Shown here one piece after another: positions 3,445 through 51,566 of a DNA stretch of 64,000 bases; positions within the stretch are counted from its first letter, which is position 1; the number at the start of each line of letters is the position of its first letter. Both the position numbers and the translations under genes were made by a program. Origin of the DNA: Magnetococcales bacterium (GTDB lineage Bacteria; Pseudomonadota; Magnetococcia; Magnetococcales; JADFYX01); contig PEAM01000001.1 of the NCBI GenBank assembly GCA_002753565.1, positions 1 to 64,000 of the forward strand. The letters run 5' to 3'. The notes beneath the pieces were generated by a model that worked only from the letters and a program-made list of their open reading frames with translations, was not told the origin of the DNA and ran no database searches.

Positions 3445-4455
3445 CTATTTCCCTCCCTTGGGACACCCTTTGGCTGGGATCCGCTGGCTGAGCAGGGTCT
3501 GGGCAGAAAAGCGCTGTTTTTCTGGGTCGAAGGAGACAATCGTCGCATCAACCAGATAGGCCCTGTCAGGGGGGTCTGTGAGGGAGACGTCGCCGGCGGC
3601 ATTGAGTCGCCACAGGCTCTTCCCCTGACCATACTGTTCGAGGCAATAGGGGCCGGTGTCGCCATGGATGAGCAGGGTTGGTTTACCAAGCGCTTCGGCC
3701 TTTTTCATCAGTTGGCTGCGGAACAGCTGGTAGGGATCACACTTTTTCCTGACCTTTTCGCTGCAGGCTCTGGCTCCCTTGTGGGCTTTTTTCACCGCCT
3801 CCAGATCGGCATGGATGACAAAAACCAACCCCTTGGCTCTCTCCTTTTTAGCCCGATCAAAGGCTGACTCCAGCCAGATGAGGTTATCTCTGTCCCGTTG
3901 GTCGACCTGAAGGAGGGCTTGGCGTTTTTTATCCTTTTTTATTTTAGCCCGACCATTTTTTGTCCCGACAATGTGCAGGGTCGAAAAGAGCAGATCACCA
4001 TAGAGCCACTGCCCGTTTTCTGGCAATTTCGGCCCCTGACTGCGAAATCCCCAGTTAGCTGGTATGGGGTAGGGTTGGGGAAAAAAGAGGCTGCGTAACC
4101 AGGCTAAGCTCTCCAGTTCTGATTGGGAGCTGCCGGAGTGGCTGCTATCGCAGTCGGTCCAGTCGTTGTCCCCCGGCGTATAGAAGACCGGCCCCTTATG
4201 GAGGGCGTAAATTTGCTCTCGGCGTTGTTGCATGAGTGGCTGCTGACACCCCTCCCGTTTTTTAAAATCTCCGTAGTGGATGACAAAGGGGAGGCCCTGT
4301 TGGGAGAGGGAGTCGGCTATTCCCCCTTTTCGGGTCAACTTGTCGGCTTGTTCCGGGGTGTAAGGGAGGTCGCCAATAACGGCAAACCGGGTGGTTGTTC
4401 CACTGATTCCCTGGCTGGGAATCAAAAGGACCAGCAGAGAGAGAAAAAGTACCAT
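3445..4455 (-). CDS. Exported metallophosphatase-like protein
   Basis: The annotated start is the ATG at 4455, giving 336 residues that begin with a signal peptide (VLFLSLLVLLIPSQGIS). Calcineurin-like motifs appear in order: GDLPY, HYGDF, GDNDWTD, VIHAD and HGDTGP. The first motif lacks the usual D-x-H, so the metal site may be atypical. The reading frame stays open 111 codons further upstream to 4788, but that part is a translated interspersed repeat and hides the signal peptide, so I reject the longer start. The substrate is unknown. Extracellular phosphoesters are possible. Confidence 0.72.
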   Translation of the reverse strand: MVLFLSLLVLLIPSQGISGTTTRFAVIGDLPYTPEQADKLTRKGGIADSLSQQGLPFVIHYGDFKKREGCQQPLMQQRREQIYALHKGPVFYTPGDNDWTDCDSSHSGSSQSELESLAWLRSLFFPQPYPIPANWGFRSQGPKLPENGQWLYGDLLFSTLHIVGTKNGRAKIKKDKKRQALLQVDQRDRDNLIWLESAFDRAKKERAKGLVFVIHADLEAVKKAHKGARACSEKVRKKCDPYQLFRSQLMKKAEALGKPTLLIHGDTGPYCLEQYGQGKSLWRLNAAGDVSLTDPPDRAYLVDATIVSFDPEKQRFSAQTLLSQRIPAKGCPKGGK

Positions 4456-4504
4456 CCCGAGGGTAAGCTGACTGTCTGGGCAACAGAGATTCCGAATCCC
4501 ATCA

Positions 4505-4770
4505 GTACCAAAACGTGGCGGATGGGTCTGGGAAGGCATGGGTGCCTTCCCAGCGGGTTTGGGCAGAGCCCAAGGTTTTAATCCTTTGACTTTGCTTTTA
4601 TTTTTATCTTTTAAAAGCGTGGGGGTTTGGGGGCCTGCAAGGCCTCCCAAGGTGTTGACTTTGCTTTTATTTTTATCTTTTAAAAGCGTGGGGGTTTGGG
4701 GGCCTGCAAGGCCTCCCAAGGTGTTGACTTGGCCTTCACTGTTTGTCCAAATCCGCTTTTGACTGTCGAT
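4505..4770 (+). repeat. MITE-like repeat, copy B, with internal 69-bp duplication
   Basis: A copy of the interspersed family lying just upstream of the metallophosphatase start, in the opposite orientation. It contains the hairpin GGGAAGGCA/TGCCTTCCC and the GGGGGCCTGCAAGGCCTCCC palindrome. Unlike the other copies, the segment from TTGACTTTGC to AAGGTG is present twice in tandem (4586-4654 and 4655-4723, period 69 bp). Because 69 is a multiple of 3, the complementary strand reads as a duplicated 23-residue peptide. Confidence 0.88.
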
Positions 4771-4788
4771 GGGAAGCATGGTCGTCAC

Positions 4789-5001
4789 CTATTTTGAAGG
4801 GGTTTTAGGTTGAAAGTGGGGACAGCTCTGATGAACGGTGTAGAATTGATCGTGCCATCGGCAGAGGCCGGTCTCACCCCGCACCGAACCCAGTGCAGAG
4901 GAGAGGATGTTCAAACCGGGAATTTCCCGCTCCAGGGCGAGAGGCTCCGAGACAAAGTGCCGGCAATAGCCACAATGGGGCGTGGTCACATTGTGGCCCA
5001 A
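4789..5001 (-). CDS. Four-cysteine small hypothetical protein
   Basis: A 70-residue protein of unrecognised family. Its four cysteines are spaced as C10-x2-C13, C47 and C60, each followed by an aromatic or basic residue (CGYCRHF, CRWHD, CPHFQP). This suggests a small metal- or Fe-S-binding fold, which is inference. Its start overlaps the end of the YeiH-type transporter gene by 16 bp, so it is probably translationally coupled to it. It could be an accessory to that transporter. Confidence 0.6.
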   Translation of the reverse strand: MGHNVTTPHCGYCRHFVSEPLALEREIPGLNILSSALGSVRGETGLCRWHDQFYTVHQSCPHFQPKTPSK

Positions 5002-6599
5002 TAGTCGCCAAACAGATGCACCGAGAGCAGATATCCGGCAATGACATTGACAACAACCCCAATGGTAAAGGCTGAAAAGGAGCGAACATTGACCGATTTC
5101 AGTTCGTGAATCCGGGTGGTAAGGCCGATGGAGAGAAAACAGAAAATAAAGGCCCAGCCCCGGAAGGCCCCGATGGGTTCCAGCAGGTTGGGTTTGATGG
5201 ATGCTTCGAACTGTTCAGCAGAGACGCTGCTGCTAACCAGGGTGACAAGAAGGGAGGCGGCAAAAAAACCGATGATAAATTTGGGAAACCGTCTCCAGAT
5301 CTCTCTTGCATCCAGCTTGGCTCCTCCTGTAGGGTTTTGCCAGACGGTTGTGGCGATAAAGGCCCAGACCAACGACCAGATACCGATCCACAAATCCCGT
5401 CCAATCACTTTCATCAGGGTGAAGGATTTGATGGCGGCCTCTTCATTGCCAGCCATTTTTCCGTAGGAGCTGGCGGCGGCAAACCCGGCTGCATCGGCAA
5501 ACTCCGAGGTACCGATCCAGGCGCCGGCCACGCCGGGTGCCAGCCCCATGGATTGAGAGACAAACGGCAGCACGAGAATCATCACCAAGGCCCAGAATAC
5601 GACCAGGGTGACCGAGGTGTAAATATGCTCTTTTTTGGCGCCAACCGCCGCCGCAATAGCCATGGAGGCCGACACGCCACAGACCGACCCACCAACACTG
5701 ATCACCGCAGCCAGACGCCGATCCAGATGAAAGAGTCGGGTGGCGGAAAAATAGATGGTGATACAGCTAAGCAGGGAGATAAAGGTGGCCTGGATGATGG
5801 CAACCGGCCCGGCGGTTAAAATCAGGGTGATGGGAAAGGTGGCTCCCAGGAGGACAATGCCAAACTTGACATAGTACTCCACCCGGCAGGCGGCCTCCAT
5901 CCACTCGGGTAGTTTCAGGGTGTTAGCCAGCACCAGTCCAACAATCAGGGCCACCAGGGGCGGCTCCAGGTTAAAGTTGGCGGCGTTCTCCCAACCGCTG
6001 ACTGAAAAAATAGCCATGGAGAGGAGATAAAGAAAAAGAAAGCTTGGGAAAAAACGCCCGAAGCCGATCCCCATCACCCGGCAGGAGACACCGAATAAGA
6101 TCAGCCACACAACCAGTTGGCGTAGATAGAGAGGACCATTTTGGCTGAAGTGGTCGAACAGCTCCCCCACCGTCTGCCATTTCAGCCCACCAGGATTGAT
6201 GGCCAAAGCACCCAACAGGGAGCTCTCTCCATCGAAGGTGACCAGATCCAGCACCACCAACCCCAATCCCAGCCAGATAGCCCACCAGTCCTCTTTTAAA
6301 AAAAGTTCACTGACACGCAGGGGAGGGGTGGCGAGAGAGAGGGGTACCTCTCCCCCTTGAAGAGGGATACGGGAGAGGCCACTGGCCAGGGATAATCCAC
6401 CCAGTATCATGATGGCTAGAGGCACTATTCCCCTGAGGAGTTCAACGGTAGGCCACCACCAGACCACCAAACCCCACACGCCAAACCCGAGAGAAAACAG
6501 CCCGAATAGAATGCCAAACACAGCCACAAACCAGAAGAAAGTGAAAAAGAGGGAGAGAAAAACGTGCTGAAGAGCGTTATTGTGCAATGAAACAGCCAA
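4986..6599 (-). CDS. YeiH/UPF0324-type putative anion (sulfate) exporter, long form
   Basis: Polytopic membrane protein of 537 residues. The C-terminal two thirds match the YeiH (UPF0324) family, which is annotated as putative sulfate exporter: EPPLVALIVGLVLAN, YYVKFGIVLLG, VGGSVCGVSASMAIAAAVGA and FADAAGFAAASSYG. Typical members have about 330-350 residues. This one carries about 190 extra N-terminal residues with several additional hydrophobic segments, including a possible ancillary membrane bundle. The family function is poorly proven. In a sulfur oxidiser, export of sulfate or a related anion would fit (inference). The small cysteine protein gene overlaps its 3' end. Confidence 0.85.
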   Translation of the reverse strand: MAVSLHNNALQHVFLSLFFTFFWFVAVFGILFGLFSLGFGVWGLVVWWWPTVELLRGIVPLAIMILGGLSLASGLSRIPLQGGEVPLSLATPPLRVSELFLKEDWWAIWLGLGLVVLDLVTFDGESSLLGALAINPGGLKWQTVGELFDHFSQNGPLYLRQLVVWLILFGVSCRVMGIGFGRFFPSFLFLYLLSMAIFSVSGWENAANFNLEPPLVALIVGLVLANTLKLPEWMEAACRVEYYVKFGIVLLGATFPITLILTAGPVAIIQATFISLLSCITIYFSATRLFHLDRRLAAVISVGGSVCGVSASMAIAAAVGAKKEHIYTSVTLVVFWALVMILVLPFVSQSMGLAPGVAGAWIGTSEFADAAGFAAASSYGKMAGNEEAAIKSFTLMKVIGRDLWIGIWSLVWAFIATTVWQNPTGGAKLDAREIWRRFPKFIIGFFAASLLVTLVSSSVSAEQFEASIKPNLLEPIGAFRGWAFIFCFLSIGLTTRIHELKSVNVRSFSAFTIGVVVNVIAGYLLSVHLFGDYWATM

Positions 6600-6925
6600 A
6601 CATGCCAGGAAAAGATATCACCCCCAACGTCTCATGGTGTCACCCTGGGCTGGAACCCTTGCCGACTACAGAGATTTCAAACCAGGTTTGTACAAAACGA
6701 TTGCGGATGGGTCTGGGAAGGCGTGGGTGCCTTCCCAGCGGGTTTGGGCAGCGCCAAAGGTTTTAAGTCTTTGTTTTTTAAACTTAAAAAGCGTGTGGTT
6801 TGGGGGCCTGCAAGGCCTCCCAAGGTGTTGACTTTGCCTTTAACCATTGTCCCAATTTGGTTTTAACTGTCTATAACAAGGAGAGCCCCTCCCTGAACCC
6901 CCGCAACCCATGTTGGATACATCAA
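6600..6925. other. Intergenic region, mostly repeat copy C
   Basis: This 326-bp gap separates the start of the YeiH-type gene from the end of the collagen-like gene. About two thirds is repeat copy C. I see no gene or clear promoter in the rest. Confidence 0.7.
6667..6878 (+). repeat. MITE-like repeat, copy C (near full length)
   Basis: One of the most complete copies. The left end, TACAGAGATTTCAAACCAGG, and the right end, TTTGGTTTTAACTGTCTATA, form an imperfect terminal inverted repeat of about 24 bp when compared across copies. Inside are the GGGAAGGC/GCCTTCCC hairpin, TTTGGGCAGCGCC and the CCTGCAAGG palindrome. There is no coding capacity for a transposase. If mobile, it would have depended on an enzyme encoded elsewhere. 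Confidence 0.85.
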
Positions 6926-9037
6926 CTAGACAACCAATTTGACACCCAGCTGTTTGGGGTCCGGTTTTTTCTTCTCCTGAACCCCTCTTGGGGCCGGAAC
7001 ACGGCGCCTGATGGTGTTGAGAGACCGGGTTGAAACCGGTGAAAAGCCTGTTTTTTCGGAAGCTTTTCCGCTCTCTCCAACCTCCCCTTTTTCCCCTTGC
7101 TCCCCCTTTTCGCCTTTGTCCCCTTTTTCCCCTTGCTCCCCTTTGGGTCCGGGGACTCCTTTGTCTCCTTTTGGGCCTGGCATACCCTGGCGCCCTCTGG
7201 GACCATGGAGACCGTCCGCCCCACGAGGTCCCGGCTTTCCTTCCCGACCCGGTGTGCCAGGATCTCCCTGCATGCCGCGCTCGCCTTTTTCGCCGCTTGG
7301 ACCTTGAATACCCTGAATACCCGATTCACCCTGGGGTCCAGCCTCCCCTTGAAGCCCCTGAGGGCCTGCGGGACCAATCTCCCCCTGAATACCCTGGATT
7401 CCCTGATCCCCTTTTTCCCCCTGAGGCCCGGTCTCGCCCTGTTTGCCTTCTGGTCCTGTGGGTCCCGGGTCACCTTTCGTCCCATGCAGACCCTGTTCCC
7501 CTTGAGGACCGGTCTCACCGGCTGGGCCAACATCCCCTTTGTCACCCTTTTCTCCCATAGGCCCTGGCACCCCTTGAGGTCCGGTTTCTCCCATGGGACC
7601 TGGCATACCCTGGGGTCCGGTTTCACCGGTTGGTCCCGCCTCGCCCGTCTCCCCTTTTTCACCGGGGAGCCCCTCTTTTCCCTGGGGGCCGATCTCTCCG
7701 CTCTCCCCCTGCGGTCCCATCAAACCCATGGGGCCAGGAGGACCCATCAGGCCTGGCTCTCCTTGGAAACCCTGGGGGCCGATCACTCCGCTCTCCCCCT
7801 GCGGTCCCATCAAACCCATGGGGCCAGGAGGACCCATCAGGCCCAGCTCACCCGGCTGGCCCTGGATGCCGGCCTGCCCACGCTCCCCACACTCCCCCTG
7901 CGGCCCCATCAGACCCATGGGGCCAGGAGGACCGACCAATCCGTCCTCTCCCCGCAAGCCGCGCTCCCCATCCCGACCATCTTGTCCGGGGTCACCTTTT
8001 TCCCCTTTATCTCCCTTCTCGCCCTGCGGCCCCATCGGACCGGTGAGGCTCTCTCGGTCCAGGGTAAGGATCTCCTGCTCTATTCGAGAGACCTTGCTAT
8101 CCACCTCTTGGATGGGGGCACGGACATTGGTGGCAAAAAGCTGGTAGAGCATCTCTTGGATTCCATCCAGCGTTTCGCCCCCTTCCAAAGGGGCTGCCTT
8201 GCTCGCTTGTTGGTGGACAACGTGTTGCAACTGCTTGGTTTGGTCATCTTGTTGGGAGGCTTGGCAGAAGAGGGTATAACTCATGCTGTTATACCCCTCA
8301 AAGGCCCTGTCCAAAAAGCGGCTGCTTCCGTGGAGCTGGTGTCCCAACTTGCCGGATTCCACCAGGGTCATGCCGTCCACCAACAGATCCAGCTCTTCTC
8401 TAAACCAGCTTTTGCTGAGAAAATAGAGGAGCAGGTTGGTCAGCAGCAGAAGGGAACAGTAGAGGATGATCTCCTCCCGGTTGGAAAGGGTCGTCATGTT
8501 CTGTAGGGTGGTGGCCGGAACAGAGATGCGGATAACACCCTGAAAACCCTCTGTTGAGGTGCTGACCGGTTGGGATATGAGTGGCTGAACCGGTCGAAAA
8601 TAGTGGTAGGCATCGACTGTATCGGTCAGATCGGCTGGCTCACGGAGGAGGGTTGCCTGGGGATTTTGTTGAAAAAAACGCAGAGCCTCACCATCCAGAT
8701 CGGTGGGGACGGTCTCTGTTTGGCTTGGGCTGTTTTGGATGTAGTTGAAGGTGAGTCCTTGGATATTTTCCCCTTGGAAAAGAGAGGAGATTTTGCCCAC
8801 AACCAGAGGGAAAGGCAGGCTGGTCAAGGGTTGATTGGCCCCTTGACCCAAAGCCAGGTGCAGATTGCTGAACAGCTCCGAGGAGGCGGTCAACAGGCGG
8901 TGGATTTGACCGGTCTGCTGCTCCAGTTGGTTCAAAGCCTCCTGCTGCGCCCGATTTGAGATGAAATACTCAAATAGCGTTAGGTTCAGGACAACAAAAA
9001 AAGCCACGACGGTAGCGGTTCTAAAGTGTGTTTTCAT
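6926..9037 (-). CDS. Membrane receptor-like protein with long collagen-like tail
   Basis: A 703-residue protein. TM1 is at about 7-26. A predicted periplasmic domain of about 160 residues follows, then TM2 at about 189-209 and a HAMP-like/helical stretch with a coiled coil (about 211-330). Residues 333-659 are an unbroken collagen-like run: glycine falls on every third position for about 109 triplets, rich in GEK, GDK, GPQ, GPM and GET. A basic tail ends at LGVKLVV. The first half looks like a chemoreceptor or sensor kinase without its output domain. If the topology is conventional, the collagen domain is cytoplasmic, whereas most bacterial collagen-like proteins are surface-exposed. A reversed topology would place it outside. 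Function unknown. Confidence 0.85.
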   Translation of the reverse strand: MKTHFRTATVVAFFVVLNLTLFEYFISNRAQQEALNQLEQQTGQIHRLLTASSELFSNLHLALGQGANQPLTSLPFPLVVGKISSLFQGENIQGLTFNYIQNSPSQTETVPTDLDGEALRFFQQNPQATLLREPADLTDTVDAYHYFRPVQPLISQPVSTSTEGFQGVIRISVPATTLQNMTTLSNREEIILYCSLLLLTNLLLYFLSKSWFREELDLLVDGMTLVESGKLGHQLHGSSRFLDRAFEGYNSMSYTLFCQASQQDDQTKQLQHVVHQQASKAAPLEGGETLDGIQEMLYQLFATNVRAPIQEVDSKVSRIEQEILTLDRESLTGPMGPQGEKGDKGEKGDPGQDGRDGERGLRGEDGLVGPPGPMGLMGPQGECGERGQAGIQGQPGELGLMGPPGPMGLMGPQGESGVIGPQGFQGEPGLMGPPGPMGLMGPQGESGEIGPQGKEGLPGEKGETGEAGPTGETGPQGMPGPMGETGPQGVPGPMGEKGDKGDVGPAGETGPQGEQGLHGTKGDPGPTGPEGKQGETGPQGEKGDQGIQGIQGEIGPAGPQGLQGEAGPQGESGIQGIQGPSGEKGERGMQGDPGTPGREGKPGPRGADGLHGPRGRQGMPGPKGDKGVPGPKGEQGEKGDKGEKGEQGEKGEVGESGKASEKTGFSPVSTRSLNTIRRRVPAPRGVQEKKKPDPKQLGVKLVV
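7061..8041 (-). repeat. Coding repeat: collagen Gly-X-Y run with nested approx. 90-bp units
   Basis: This is the DNA encoding the 109 collagen triplets. Within it a longer unit carrying GPPGPMGLMGPQGE recurs three times (near 7690-7755, 7780-7845 and 7885-7940) with almost identical nucleotides. That indicates recent expansion by slippage or recombination. The 9-bp periodicity also keeps several antisense frames open, and those are artefacts. Confidence 0.9.
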
Positions 9038-9714: not shown

Positions 9715-12700
9715 ATGGACAACTCCTTTTTCATGCATTACGGACGTCTTTGCGAAAGATGTTTTAGCGAAACCCTGTCGGCAGATGCCCCCTTCTCCTT
9801 TTTTCCCCAGACCATCTCTGGGGTACAAACAACGGATCAGCAGGTCAAGCAGCTCTCTGACTATGCCGACCCGGTCCAGTTGGCCAAGGCGACCAAAGCC
9901 GCAGAGCGATTGCGGCAGGCTCTTTTGTCGGAGTCCAACGACAAAGGCTCTCTGATCACCCCCCAAACCACCCAAAAGTTTAATGAGTTTCTTAAAGGGT
10001 TGGCCCAGGGTAGCGAGGCCATGCTCTCGGAGAACCCCTTTTATGAGTTGACGGTGTTAATCTATCAACTCAATTTAAAGGCCATCGAGAACGCCTTTGT
10101 CGAGAGCCAGAAGGGTGCGGACCACAATCTACCCCAGGCCATGAAAGTCTCCCGTTCCCTGAAATATATCTGGGGTCGGGAAGGCTCCATGATCCCCCTG
10201 GGGGTGAAGATTCAGGAGACCCTTGGCAAGACCCTTTCGTTGGGTAAAATTCTTTTGGGCTTGATTCTCTTCATCGGCTCGACCCTGACCACCGCCAAGG
10301 GGGTGAACGATCTGGTGCAACTGGATGGATTTGTCCGGGTGTTTGGGGATTTTTTCTTGGGGGAGAAGCACGAGAACATCCGTCTACTGCTCACCTTGAC
10401 GGTGGGGGTGGTGCTCTCCTCTATTATTCTCGACTTTAAAGACCGTCTTTTTCAGGGGGTGGCGGAGACCGGCAAGGTGTTTCAGGGGTTTGTCGATGCC
10501 TTCAAACGGTTTCCCCGTTGGATGTTCCTCTCCATGTTTTTCTCCATGGCCTCTATCTGGACCAACTATGACGGCATCGTTCTGCTCTTTTCCAAAACCC
10601 AAGATCTCTCCTATCAGAGCGAGGTGATTCAAGATCGGGTCGGGCGGGCCTTGGGAGACCCTGAGGAGGTAGACCCGGACAACCCCGACTCTCTAACCGA
10701 CCTCAAGGGGCTGTTGGAGACCAAGGTTGCCACCAGCATTGAGCAGTTCAACCAGGTGGTTGAGGATGAGATGTTGGGGGTGGCCTCCAGCGGCATTGCC
10801 AGCAAGGGACCACGCTATTGGTCCAAATATTATATTATCCACGGTGGTTACAAACCGGGTAGCCAGGATGTGGTCAGCGAGATTGGACGGTCCAAATTCA
10901 ATCGAAAACTCGATGTGATGTTACAGCGCTCCAAGTTGGATTTTTCTCGCTCTCTGGAGCAAAAGCTGGAGGATATTCTCCAGCGGTATAACGGCCAGTT
11001 TGAGCAGATGAGTGTCACGGTCAAAGAGCAGATGGACGATCTGACCGACAAAATGACCCTCTCCACCTACTCCATCGACGAGTTGACCGCCCTGTTCAAT
11101 CTGGAGGCCTACCACGTCAACCGCAGTGTCCAGGAGGTGGTTGGACTGCTGGAGAAAAACAAGGGGGCATTTGGTCAGGCCGCCGAAGAGATCAACCGGT
11201 TGGCTGAGGACCACATCAACTTTCTGCGAGAGGTGGACCGGGTCGGGATTCCGACCAACACTCAGTACACCATTAATGTCCGCATCGATATTCCCCCCGT
11301 CGAGGCCATCGACCAACTGAATCAGAGCCAGATCCCCATGGCCAAACGGCGCAGTGTGATGGAGCTTAAGGCGCTTCTCCATGAGCGCTATGGCTCCTTT
11401 GTTGGTGCCTCCATCCTCTTTGGTATCCTTTTTATCGCTGTCTTCATGGATCTTTCCGACCCCATTTTCTACAGTACCATGGTGGCCCGTTGGGGCCGTC
11501 GGGATCGACACTTTCTCCAGGAGAATATTAAACGGTTTCAGGTGTGGGAGGAGGAGTACATTCAAAATATTCGTACCTTCCTGGCCCGCCCTGATGTTCG
11601 GGCCATTCTACCGCAACTCTCCTGCCCCCGAACCCCGGTTCTGCACTGGATCTACCACCAATATCTGGAGAGCCTCGCCCCTTTTGTCAAGGATTATGCC
11701 CGACTGAACGCCCGGGAGAGATTTCGCTTCTGGTTTCTGGGTCTCTTCTCCACCACCCGGATACGTTACGCCGAGGTCTATAACGCCCGCCAATCGGTTA
11801 CCCGGAGAATTTTAAAAGACTCCGGCACCCTATTGCCCCCTCTGCTCAACCATCTTTATGGCAACCTGTTTCACCCTTTCTCCATCGGTAATGACCATTT
11901 TGATACCCTCTATGAGCGGGTTAATCAGAAGATGATTGGTAATGAGGATCGGTTTACCCAGGAGATTGCACGGATTTCAACGATCATCGACGAGCAGATG
12001 GCCCTCAGCCCAGAGCAATCCAGCCTCACCCGTAGCCGGAAACTGCACCATAAAGTGCTGGCCAAGCTCCACACCGGTCATGGTGTGATTAATCTGCTCT
12101 CTAAAAAGGGCCGCTTTTATGAGCTGCTCTACCTGATCTTCTCCCGGCCTATTGGTCGCTCCGAGTTTGACTTTTCTCTGACTCGAAACAACTGGATGGT
12201 GGATCAGGCGCTGTTCCAAAAAATTTCGCACTCCTACATCAGCTCCCTGCTACCCTTTGTACCGGTACTGACCAAGCTCCTCGGTGAGACCATCCCACAG
12301 GTGAAAAGAACGTTGCTCTACCCGGTGATGGAGTCGTTGGAGAATATTCCCCACCACGTGGAGCTGAAACGGATTTTAAAAATTCAGGAGGCCCATGACG
12401 AGTGTCTCGATTTTGAAAGGGAGCTGCTCTGTGTCTTGGGCATGTCCCATGGTCAGGGGCTGCAGGTGGATAACGCCCTGTTTAGAAGTATTATGGAGAA
12501 CGCTGTTTGCGAGGAGATTCCTGCCGTCTTTCTTACCAAAGAGAAAGAGGCCGATGTGCTGGCGTTGAAAATGGCTCGGTTGGAGAGTGGGCTGAGTAAA
12601 ACTCTGGCCATTATTACCCGACTTCTGGCCGAACGAAAACAGACCATCTCTACCCTGACCAAAATTCGCATCGACTCCCTGCGCCCCATCTCCTCTATTT

Positions 12701-13422
12701 TGGACAAATTCAACAACCGGGATCTTATCGAGGGGGCGGTGGGCCTCTACACGCTTCACCGGGAATTAGCCGCATTGGACGGTTTTATCATGCGCCTTTG
12801 GGGCGGGGGTAGAGTCTCTGGGAATGTCATGAGCCCCGACGGAGCGGAGGAGGAGCGGGCTGATCTGGGGGGAGGGGTCGATCTGGTGCTGGCCAAGTTC
12901 AACTTGGAGGGCCAGGGGGAGGATTTCTCTCTGTTGACCATGGCGCTGGAGCTTGAAAAAAAGTTGGCCACCATGAAAAAAGAGGTAGAGTCCAAGGTGT
13001 TCCTTCTGACCTTTCTGGATAAGACCATAGATAAAACCAAGGCGATGATATCCGATGCTTTTCAACTGATTGCCACGATATTCATCCATGAGGCCCGCCT
13101 GACAAAAAGCGGTGAAACCCTGGATAAGGCTGATAGAGAGCGGCTGGAGTTTCTTGAAGACCACTACCTGTTCCTGCAGTCGGTGCCGCTCTTTTTAGAT
13201 GCCAACCGTACCCAACTGATGGCCTCGGCCAAGGTGACCGATTTTGTCCGTTCCGGGGAGGTGGAGTCGTTGCGCGTGCTGGAGGGTCAGATATTCAAGA
13301 TCCACACCTTTTTGGAGAATACCGAATCCTTCCTGGATGGCAAGCGGGGTAGGGCCGGTATTGTGGCGCCGTTGGATCTGATGGAGGATCTTCCTCTACT
13401 TCCTGCCAAGGATAAGAGGTAA
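9715..13422 (+). CDS. Giant four-TM membrane protein of unknown family
   Basis: A 1235-residue protein I do not recognise. Hydrophobic segments lie at about 177-193, 222-240, 268-291 and 560-579. With the N-terminus inside, residues about 292-558 would be a periplasmic domain that is helical and charged, with alternating Q/E/K heptad-like stretches. The C-terminal 650 residues would be cytoplasmic, largely helical and free of obvious catalytic motifs. The start is uncertain: purine-rich GAGGTAAGG lies 11-16 bp before the ATG at 9715, but the first 40 codons look atypical. It is divergent from the collagen-like gene. Its 3' end carries a 21-bp tandem duplication and faces the haemerythrin gene. 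Confidence 0.8.
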   Translation: MDNSFFMHYGRLCERCFSETLSADAPFSFFPQTISGVQTTDQQVKQLSDYADPVQLAKATKAAERLRQALLSESNDKGSLITPQTTQKFNEFLKGLAQGSEAMLSENPFYELTVLIYQLNLKAIENAFVESQKGADHNLPQAMKVSRSLKYIWGREGSMIPLGVKIQETLGKTLSLGKILLGLILFIGSTLTTAKGVNDLVQLDGFVRVFGDFFLGEKHENIRLLLTLTVGVVLSSIILDFKDRLFQGVAETGKVFQGFVDAFKRFPRWMFLSMFFSMASIWTNYDGIVLLFSKTQDLSYQSEVIQDRVGRALGDPEEVDPDNPDSLTDLKGLLETKVATSIEQFNQVVEDEMLGVASSGIASKGPRYWSKYYIIHGGYKPGSQDVVSEIGRSKFNRKLDVMLQRSKLDFSRSLEQKLEDILQRYNGQFEQMSVTVKEQMDDLTDKMTLSTYSIDELTALFNLEAYHVNRSVQEVVGLLEKNKGAFGQAAEEINRLAEDHINFLREVDRVGIPTNTQYTINVRIDIPPVEAIDQLNQSQIPMAKRRSVMELKALLHERYGSFVGASILFGILFIAVFMDLSDPIFYSTMVARWGRRDRHFLQENIKRFQVWEEEYIQNIRTFLARPDVRAILPQLSCPRTPVLHWIYHQYLESLAPFVKDYARLNARERFRFWFLGLFSTTRIRYAEVYNARQSVTRRILKDSGTLLPPLLNHLYGNLFHPFSIGNDHFDTLYERVNQKMIGNEDRFTQEIARISTIIDEQMALSPEQSSLTRSRKLHHKVLAKLHTGHGVINLLSKKGRFYELLYLIFSRPIGRSEFDFSLTRNNWMVDQALFQKISHSYISSLLPFVPVLTKLLGETIPQVKRTLLYPVMESLENIPHHVELKRILKIQEAHDECLDFERELLCVLGMSHGQGLQVDNALFRSIMENAVCEEIPAVFLTKEKEADVLALKMARLESGLSKTLAIITRLLAERKQTISTLTKIRIDSLRPISSILDKFNNRDLIEGAVGLYTLHRELAALDGFIMRLWGGGRVSGNVMSPDGAEEERADLGGGVDLVLAKFNLEGQGEDFSLLTMALELEKKLATMKKEVESKVFLLTFLDKTIDKTKAMISDAFQLIATIFIHEARLTKSGETLDKADRERLEFLEDHYLFLQSVPLFLDANRTQLMASAKVTDFVRSGEVESLRVLEGQIFKIHTFLENTESFLDGKRGRAGIVAPLDLMEDLPLLPAKDKR

Positions 13423-13446: not shown

Positions 13447-14331
13447 TTAGCTCTGGGGTTGCCGAGACTCCTGCTCCTTGAAATAGACCCCGAAGCTGAG
13501 GTCCTCCTGGAGAATATGCTCAATGAGCCAGTTGCCCATGAACTTGTGAACCTGCTGCATGATGTGCAACTGTTCGTCTTTATGGGAGAGAAGAACAATT
13601 TTTTCTCTGAAGCTGACAACATTGGCCAGCAGAGCCTGATGGACCTGTTTGTGCTCTGCAAGCCAGGGAGCTTCGGTCTTCTCCATCAGACGCTCTTCGT
13701 CGCGGAAATGTTTTTCTGTGTAGTTGGTAATTTCGATCAAAAAATTTTGTATCTTGATGTGTTGATCCTCTTCATCGGTACTGTTTTCCAAAAAAGTCCC
13801 CAATTCGTTGATGGCATCGAAAAGCCTTTTGTGTTGATCATCTACCTCTGGGACACCAATTTTATATTTATCGGACCACTTATATTTGGTCACCTCCAGT
13901 TTGGAGGTTCTTTCGATGATCCGCTGACCGATGAGTATAAAAAAGGCTTTGGTAAACCGGGCATCCCGCATCATAATCTGTTGAAAGGTGTCGATATCCA
14001 GTGTCAGGCAGATGGTGGGGGCGCCGGCGACGATGGTGCTGTTTCGGCGTTGGTTGGAGACCAGGGCAAACTCGCCGAACACATTGCCTTCATGGATGAA
14101 GAAGTGGTGCTCTTTGCCATCTTGGGTGATGGCCAGGCCATGAACCCGCCCCTGATAGATGATAAAGAGGGTGTGGGGGGTATCGCCATGCTTGATGATG
14201 GTTTGGCCCGGTTCGAATTGTGAGATGCCGACAATGGGGAGGATCTTCTGTTTGACATCGGTTTCGGGTAGATCTTTAAAGCCGGGGACCTTTCCCAGGA
14301 AGGCGACCAGATCGGTGGTGGTGATCTCCAT
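13447..14331 (-). CDS. Cyclic-nucleotide-binding domain fused to haemerythrin
   Basis: A soluble 294-residue fusion. Residues about 10-135 are a cNMP-binding beta-roll (FEPGQTIIKHGD, GNVFGEFALVSNQRRNSTI). Residues about 155-285 are a bacteriohaemerythrin with the di-iron ligand motifs in order: IGVPEVDDQHKRLF, HFRDEERLME, WLAEHKQVHQ and WLIEHILQEDLSFG. Haemerythrins bind O2 at a non-haem di-iron centre. The beta-roll resembles CRP-type sensors but has no DNA-binding domain. A role as an oxygen- or redox-responsive signalling or buffering protein is likely (inference). It converges on the 1235-residue gene with a gap of only 24 bp. Confidence 0.9.
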   Translation of the reverse strand: MEITTTDLVAFLGKVPGFKDLPETDVKQKILPIVGISQFEPGQTIIKHGDTPHTLFIIYQGRVHGLAITQDGKEHHFFIHEGNVFGEFALVSNQRRNSTIVAGAPTICLTLDIDTFQQIMMRDARFTKAFFILIGQRIIERTSKLEVTKYKWSDKYKIGVPEVDDQHKRLFDAINELGTFLENSTDEEDQHIKIQNFLIEITNYTEKHFRDEERLMEKTEAPWLAEHKQVHQALLANVVSFREKIVLLSHKDEQLHIMQQVHKFMGNWLIEHILQEDLSFGVYFKEQESRQPQS

Positions 14332-15977: not shown

Positions 15978-16198
15978 TATAGAGATTTCAAACCAAATTT
16001 GTACAAAACGATTGCGGATGGGTCTGGGAAGGCATGAATGCCTTCCCAGCGGGTTTGGGCAGTGCCCAAGGTTCCAAGTGTTTGTTTTAAGTTGTTTTTT
16101 ACCTTTAAAAGCGTGGGGGTTTGGGGGCCTGCAAGGCCTCCCAAGGTGTTGACTTTGCCTTTAACCAGTGTCCCCATTTGGTTTTAACTGACCATATA
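15978..16198 (+). repeat. MITE-like repeat, copy D (near full length)
   Basis: It begins TATAGAGATTTCAAACCAAA and ends TTGGTTTTAACTGACCATAT, so it has both imperfect terminal inverted repeats. It carries the GGGAAGGCA/TGCCTTCCC hairpin and the CCTGCAAGG palindrome. It follows the MBL gene stop by 5 bp. Confidence 0.87.
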
Positions 16199-51377: not shown

Positions 51378-51566
51378 CTATTAGTTAAAACCAAATTGGG
51401 ACAATGGTTAAAGGCAAAGTCAACACCTTGGGAGGCCTTGCAGGCCCCCAAACCTCCACGCTTTTAAAAAGAAAAAACAACTTAAAATAAAACACTTGGA
51501 ACCTTGGGCGCTGCCCAGACCCATCCGCAATCCTTTTGTACAAATTTGGTTTGAAATCTCCATATA
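51378..51566 (-). repeat. MITE-like repeat, copy G
   Basis: A minus-strand copy with both ends: TTAAAACCAAATTGGGACAA at left and TTTGGTTTGAAATCTCCATA at right. The GGGAAGGC hairpin block is deleted between GGGCGCTGCCC and AGACCCATCCGC. The CCTGCAAGG palindrome is intact. It lies 10 bp from the carbonic anhydrase stop. Confidence 0.85.

Follow-up and report, generated by a model that had tools for sequence, protein, structure and literature searches.

The analyzed window, a 64,000-nt stretch of a Magnetococcales genome (G000), carries on its minus strand a single intact reading frame that starts with ATG and encodes a 703-aa protein with a membrane anchor and a long collagen-like part (Table 1). 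On one side it is flanked by a gene for a Cons_hypoth698 membrane protein (4986-6599), and on the other, by a divergent 1235-aa ORF (9715-13422, plus strand). The latter encodes a membrane/coiled-coil protein without a Pfam family. Of 48 genomes of the order, 27 carry it, frequently in more than one copy. Next to it, at 13447-14331 on the minus strand, a cyclic-nucleotide-binding domain is fused to a hemerythrin domain. In addition, the window contains five copies of a 34-bp part (GGGGGCCTGCAAGGCCTCCCAAGGTGTTGACTTT) of an interspersed repeat, at positions 4629-4662, 4698-4731, 6802-6835, 16123-16156 (all plus) and 51416-51449 (minus). There are 67 copies in the genome and 23 more diverged ones in G004, while no copy was found in G001 or G003 (G001, G003 and G004 are relatives from the same genus). 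One copy is just downstream of the collagen gene, and two fall within the start of an ORF at 3445-4788.

Table 1. Features of the collagen gene, in window coordinates.
Feature	Residues (aa)	Position	Strand	Basis
Whole ORF, membrane anchor and collagen		6926..9037	-	One-ORF layout also in G001
TM1	8-26	8960..9016	-	Hydropathy; F-E-Y and terminal R conserved in all four relatives
Periplasmic sCache domain, Tll0287/DUF3365-derived (predicted)	32-185	8483..8944	-	Pfam below cut-off; hhalign; tree
Site of missing heme c (CXXCH) insertion	~150-165	8543..8590	-	Gap in alignment A3
TM2	190-208	8414..8470	-	Hydropathy; aligns with parent-kinase TM2
Putative degenerate HAMP remnant	~212-260	8258..8404	-	Lines up with the Pfam HAMP matches in kinases L065 and L012
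Helical coiled-coil stretch (predicted)	290-332	8042..8170	-	Heptad a/d test; low-confidence model helix; VDxKVS motif
109 Gly-X-Y triplets, about 93.5 nm	333-659	7061..8041	-	Pfam Collagen and triplet count
Conserved basic C-terminal tail	660-703	6929..7060	-	Alignable in G000, G001, G003

The initial annotation described two transmembrane segments flanking a periplasmic domain. This agrees with the two hydropathy peaks (KD 1.99 over 19 residues for TM1 and 2.11 for TM2), the second of which contradicts the possibility that TM2 is missing. A frameshift joining two separate genes can be rejected, as the relative in G001 (L009:6951-9497, 848 aa, 146 triplets, about 125 nm) shares this layout within a single ORF. 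The contig end truncates the gene past TM2 in G004 and past ~aa 125 in G003; a second G003 contig starts within a collagen run, ends with the alignable tail, and probably carries the other half of the same gene. No such protein was found in the fifth genome of the genus, which is 65% complete. The AlphaFold model of residues 1-333, built with four relatives, was poor (pLDDT 46, 4 sequences), and a PDB profile search with alignment A2 yielded only chance matches.

The count of 109 uninterrupted triplets followed by a basic tail, given in the initial annotation, proved exact, and the Pfam Collagen domain (PF01391) matches the ORF with E 1.6e-55. The four synonymous Gly codons of the triplets are used almost equally (30/30/27/22), and the sole recent DNA repeat block of the run is found at 7680-7958 (3 x 90 nt, 72-89%). 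Pairs of the (K/R)G(E/D) type, which stabilize triple helices between chains, occur 16 times versus 8.3 expected when the triplet order is shuffled (fraction 2e-4); in G001, the same shuffling gives 33 observed versus 16 expected. Given the even Gly codon use and the enrichment of these pairs, the run is more than a product of chance or of DNA repetition, and the sequences show a collagen-type pattern kept by selection.

The run is preceded by a coiled-coil stretch, in which six of seven a/d positions are hydrophobic (0.8% of shuffles are equally good); in G001, all eight are, and none of 5000 shuffles is as good. The annotated coiled coil thus has heptad periodicity in both proteins, which also share the VDxKVS motif in this stretch. 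It is probably the trimerization nucleus, and we infer that the collagen part would form a triple helix, that is, a trimer. The tail comprises 44 residues with a net charge of ~+8 and a pattern of roughly P-[VL]-[ST]-x-[RK]...I-x-R-[KR]...P...L-x-V. It can be aligned among three species despite the differing rods (109, 146, and at least 82 triplets), and its sequence was not found in other proteins of these genomes. The run could instead stay unfolded, as a flexible hydrophilic spacer or a decaying fusion; Pro is rare at the Y positions, and bacteria generally lack prolyl hydroxylation. However, this explanation is highly improbable, as the triplets are unbroken in two diverged relatives, all Gly codons are in use, the stabilizing charge pairs are enriched, and a coiled coil stands in front.

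We searched for the N-terminal half in 41 genomes, and this layout was seen in no other genome; the weaker matches were noise or belonged to sensor kinases. When 84,980 genomes of bacteria and archaea were scanned, only three loci emerged, all in Magnetococcales and located on the same contigs as the genes of G001, G003 and G004; as the scan relied on two short patterns from the most conserved stretches, distant relatives could be missed. No relative of the gene was found among viral contigs or plasmids, and a phage or plasmid origin was rejected for that reason. Most Magnetococcales genomes lack such a protein, including the 4.72-Mb single-contig genome G014, which we take to be the magnetotactic Magnetococcus marinus MC-1. 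Among 299 genomes drawn from the phylum, the Collagen domain (E<=1e-10) was found in three genomes outside the order, and none of their best loci had a receptor-like N-terminal half. Homologues with a known surface anchor in place of this half were not encountered in these searches either. The architecture was found in a single Magnetococcales genus only.

The only Pfam domains in the window protein are Collagen and a weak Tll0287-like match (PF11845; E 0.0032, 18.3 bits versus the gathering cut-off of 24.1), with no kinase, MCP, GGDEF or other signaling output; in the related protein L003, the PF11845 match (E 1e-4) is also under the cut-off. Profile comparison gave a much clearer result. Eleven Tll0287 sensor proteins from Magnetococcales were combined into a profile, and when the profile of the four relatives was aligned to it by hhalign, the match (99.2% probability, E 7.7e-20, 257 columns) ran from TM1 through the sCache domain and TM2 to the HAMP position. 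In the maximum-likelihood tree, the collagen proteins form one clade (100/100, stem 2.16) within a subgroup of the Tll0287-type hybrid histidine kinases of the same order (98/99 for the set of eight). The sister to this clade comprises kinase L069, from the window's own genome, and L065 (93/85), although the exact sister could be wrong because of the long stem. Overall, these comparisons show that the N-terminal half descends, at the sequence level, from the Tll0287-like/DUF3365 (sCache_heme) sensor family. As a reassignment has placed DUF3365/Tll0287 in the Cache superfamily (PMC12889525), the CACHE-like fold suggested earlier for the periplasmic part is supported as well.

In Tll0287-like/sCache_heme domains, the CXXCH heme c motif is 99% conserved (PMC12889525). 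It is present in all 20 sensor rows of alignment A3, while in the collagen proteins spanning the site (those of the window, G001 and G004) the motif and the following loop are gapped and the flanks align. With the heme site lost, a live link to a periplasmic sensor, as initially proposed, is doubtful. The stretch after TM2 had been called HAMP-like. Pfam finds no HAMP there at E<=10, but the stretch is colinear with the weak Pfam HAMP located right after TM2 in the parent kinases L065 and L012 (E 4.5e-5 and 1.5e-4), and a degenerate HAMP remnant is therefore its most apt name. The profile homology, the lost heme loop and the tree nesting suggest, as the simplest history, that a heme-sensing hybrid kinase was duplicated, and that one copy then lost the heme loop and gained a coiled coil and collagen where the PAS, kinase and receiver domains had been. 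In this evolutionary sense, the proposed replacement of an output domain by collagen holds: the N-terminal half nests among hybrid histidine kinases, and the kinase output is gone. The half itself is under purifying selection (dN 0.24 between G001 and G004, with dS 1.4-2.1, near saturation).

The gene neighborhood is not conserved among the relatives and therefore indicates no partner. Three candidates were rejected. The 1235-aa ORF and the CRP-hemerythrin gene are kept as a pair in the relatives, but on contigs other than those of the collagen gene. A REC-HPt gene adjoins the collagen gene, directly upstream, in G001 and G004 only (the two copies are 71% identical), and no close relative of it was found in G000 or G003. 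A small cyclic-nucleotide-binding gene, found next to the collagen gene in G001 and G003, is one member of a multicopy family.

The protein could still be a working transmembrane sensor. A small ligand would then bind to the sCache domain despite its lack of heme, and the signal would be relayed or gathered by the HAMP remnant, coiled coil and collagen towards a partner, for example the REC-HPt protein. The purifying selection on the sCache domain and the position of the REC-HPt gene in two genomes speak for this, and the Cache superfamily mostly binds ligands without a cofactor (PMC12889525). We nevertheless consider it rather unlikely: no closely related REC-HPt gene was found in the window genome or G003, HAMP is no longer seen by Pfam, no kinase, MCP or cyclase output is present, collagen rods are not known as signal relays, and the stem branch is long.

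The genus has magnetosome genes, as seen from NCBIfam equivalog matches to MamC and MamD, with mamC in four of the five genomes. In G003, a flagellin gene and mamC-mamD are close to the collagen start, mamC beginning ~1.5 kb off. The row adjoining the collagen gene there (L011:832-5012) consists of flagellin, mamC, mamD, a second MamD/Mms6-like ORF and the small cyclic-nucleotide-binding gene. In G001, the kinase pair upstream of the collagen gene has its best counterparts beside mamC of the window genome (49% identity). These observations, and a reach of 94-125 nm that would be suitable, raise the idea that the rod ties magnetosomes, or the machinery placing them, to the inner membrane. However, mamC is on a different contig from the collagen gene in G000, G001 and G004, so that the proximity is limited to G003 and the link is possible but weak; moreover, the protein is missing from most Magnetococcales genomes, including G014. 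Such a role is thus quite unlikely.

On which side of the membrane is the collagen? In the parent kinases, the catalytic half is cytoplasmic. As their C-terminus is cytoplasmic by function, the collagen is predicted to be cytoplasmic as well. The counts of K/R residues beside the TM segments are near-balanced, so the positive-inside rule is undecisive and the topology is read from homology alone. On this ground, the collagen most likely points into the cell. Folding in the cytoplasm has a precedent, since a phage collagen with a similar residue pattern forms triple helices with Tm of 42 C when made in E. coli (PMC3368898).

Intracellular collagen is also plausible in these cells because soluble coiled-coil collagens are encoded in three other families of the order (L049:878-2473 in G009, L050:6597-8090 in G011, and L052:1930-4008 in G006). 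They consist of a charged N-terminal stretch, a coiled coil and 107-116 triplets, interrupted once, briefly and at comparable positions (e.g., PKVIVPEMEGP, PKVVVPDMQGP). They have no TM segments or signal peptide, and for the latter reason are probably intracellular. Their coiled coil ends with LENMVP(A/T)Q(I/L)Q(I/M)LSQR(M/L)(A/V)DLSRQPG; in a search of 48 genomes, it was found in these three and not in the window's genus. In most other collagen ORFs of the order, the runs are short and the N-ends tail-fibre-like. One more ORF (L051:3-1205, contig C22 of G006) has a run of at least 120 triplets and a tail that is first acidic and then basic (SAALKRWFKRP); the contig end removes the N-terminal part of this ORF.

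If the topology were inverted, as the initial annotation had allowed, or TM2 were not inserted, the collagen would be a surface or periplasmic rod, exported as a fibril or adhesin in the manner of Scl, Lcl or Bcl. In support, phage tails and the cell surface are where most of the bacterial collagen-like proteins studied are located (PMC4565658, PMC3368898), and the positive-inside rule is not decisive. Against it is the descent from kinases with a cytoplasmic output; moreover, the protein has no signal peptide, LPXTG or outer-membrane part, while 327 collagen residues would have to pass two membranes of a Gram-negative cell; the SclA, SclB and Lcl models also score far under their cut-offs. 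Hence, we regard a surface rod as unlikely.

We favor, with a probability of about 50%, a role as tether or spacer, in which the collagen rod lies in the cytoplasm and is anchored in the inner membrane. A Tll0287-type sensor histidine kinase would have lost its heme-binding loop and exchanged its PAS, kinase and receiver output for a coiled coil, ~330 residues of collagen and a basic tail. The coiled coil would nucleate a trimer, and the collagen would form a triple helix of 94 nm here and 125 nm in G001. One end would be held in the inner membrane by both TM segments together with what remains of the periplasmic domain, the stiff rod would give a reach of ~0.1 micrometre, and the conserved basic tail may grip a putative cytoplasmic partner, such as an acidic protein, an organelle surface or nucleic acid. 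The constrained N-terminal half, the kept tail and the varying rod length fit a tether whose ends matter more than its exact length. Counting against it, besides the near-balanced K/R residues, the poor structure model and the unconserved neighborhood, is a puzzle of symmetry, as one signaling member of the Tll0287-like family is a dimer (PMC12889525), while collagen needs three chains. This mismatch would mean that the receptor half has become a trimer or pairs in a higher assembly.

A broader reading, tentative at present, is that Magnetococcales possess an intracellular collagen scaffold, with anchored rods in one genus and soluble rods in three families, that would space or tether organelles or the nucleoid ~0.1 micrometre from the inner membrane.

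Known bacterial collagens are surface adhesins, spore hairs and phage fibres. In the literature searched, we found neither a sensor fused to collagen nor a bacterial collagen located within the cell; both halves are of known kinds, while their combination, and the collagen being probably inside the cell, were not found there. If true, a sensor-anchored cytoplasmic collagen would put the triple helix in a new location and give a receptor a new fate. The before-and-after case is clear, as a close relative of the parent kinase persists in the same genome. It would also provide cell biology with a simple protein ruler of ~100 nm and offers a testable idea on the interior arrangement of cells with magnetosome genes.

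The protein combines features of several known systems. With Tll0287-like/DUF3365 kinases, it shares the order of TM1, sCache, TM2 and the segment at the HAMP position over ~257 homologous columns, as well as its place in the tree. Unlike them, it lacks CXXCH, scores below the Pfam cut-off, and carries collagen and the tail instead of a kinase, MCP or GGDEF output. Similar to the adhesins Scl1/Scl2 and Lcl (NF038330, NF038329, NF046116), it has a long charged Gly-X-Y run for which hydroxyproline is not needed. However, it scores 163/400, 212/325 and 208/500 bits, under the family cut-offs, has no export signal or wall anchor, and its N-terminal half, a two-TM receptor anchor, is unrelated to theirs. 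The EPclA-D proteins of EHEC prophages also combine a coiled coil with collagen, with Pro and Glu in X and Lys and Gln in Y, and fold in the E. coli cytoplasm (PMC3368898). They differ in having tail-fibre domains and no membrane anchor, while the window gene has no relative on viral contigs. Burkholderia Bucl4 (Bac_export_1 and collagen, PMC4565658) is likewise a predicted inner-membrane protein with a collagen part, but its type III export domain is unrelated and not derived from a sensor, and the side of its collagen is not established. Finally, the soluble collagens of G009, G011 and G006 come from the same order and also have a coiled coil followed by collagen (107-116 triplets), but they lack TM segments and sCache and start with a charged stretch, and their coiled coils were not matched to the window protein.
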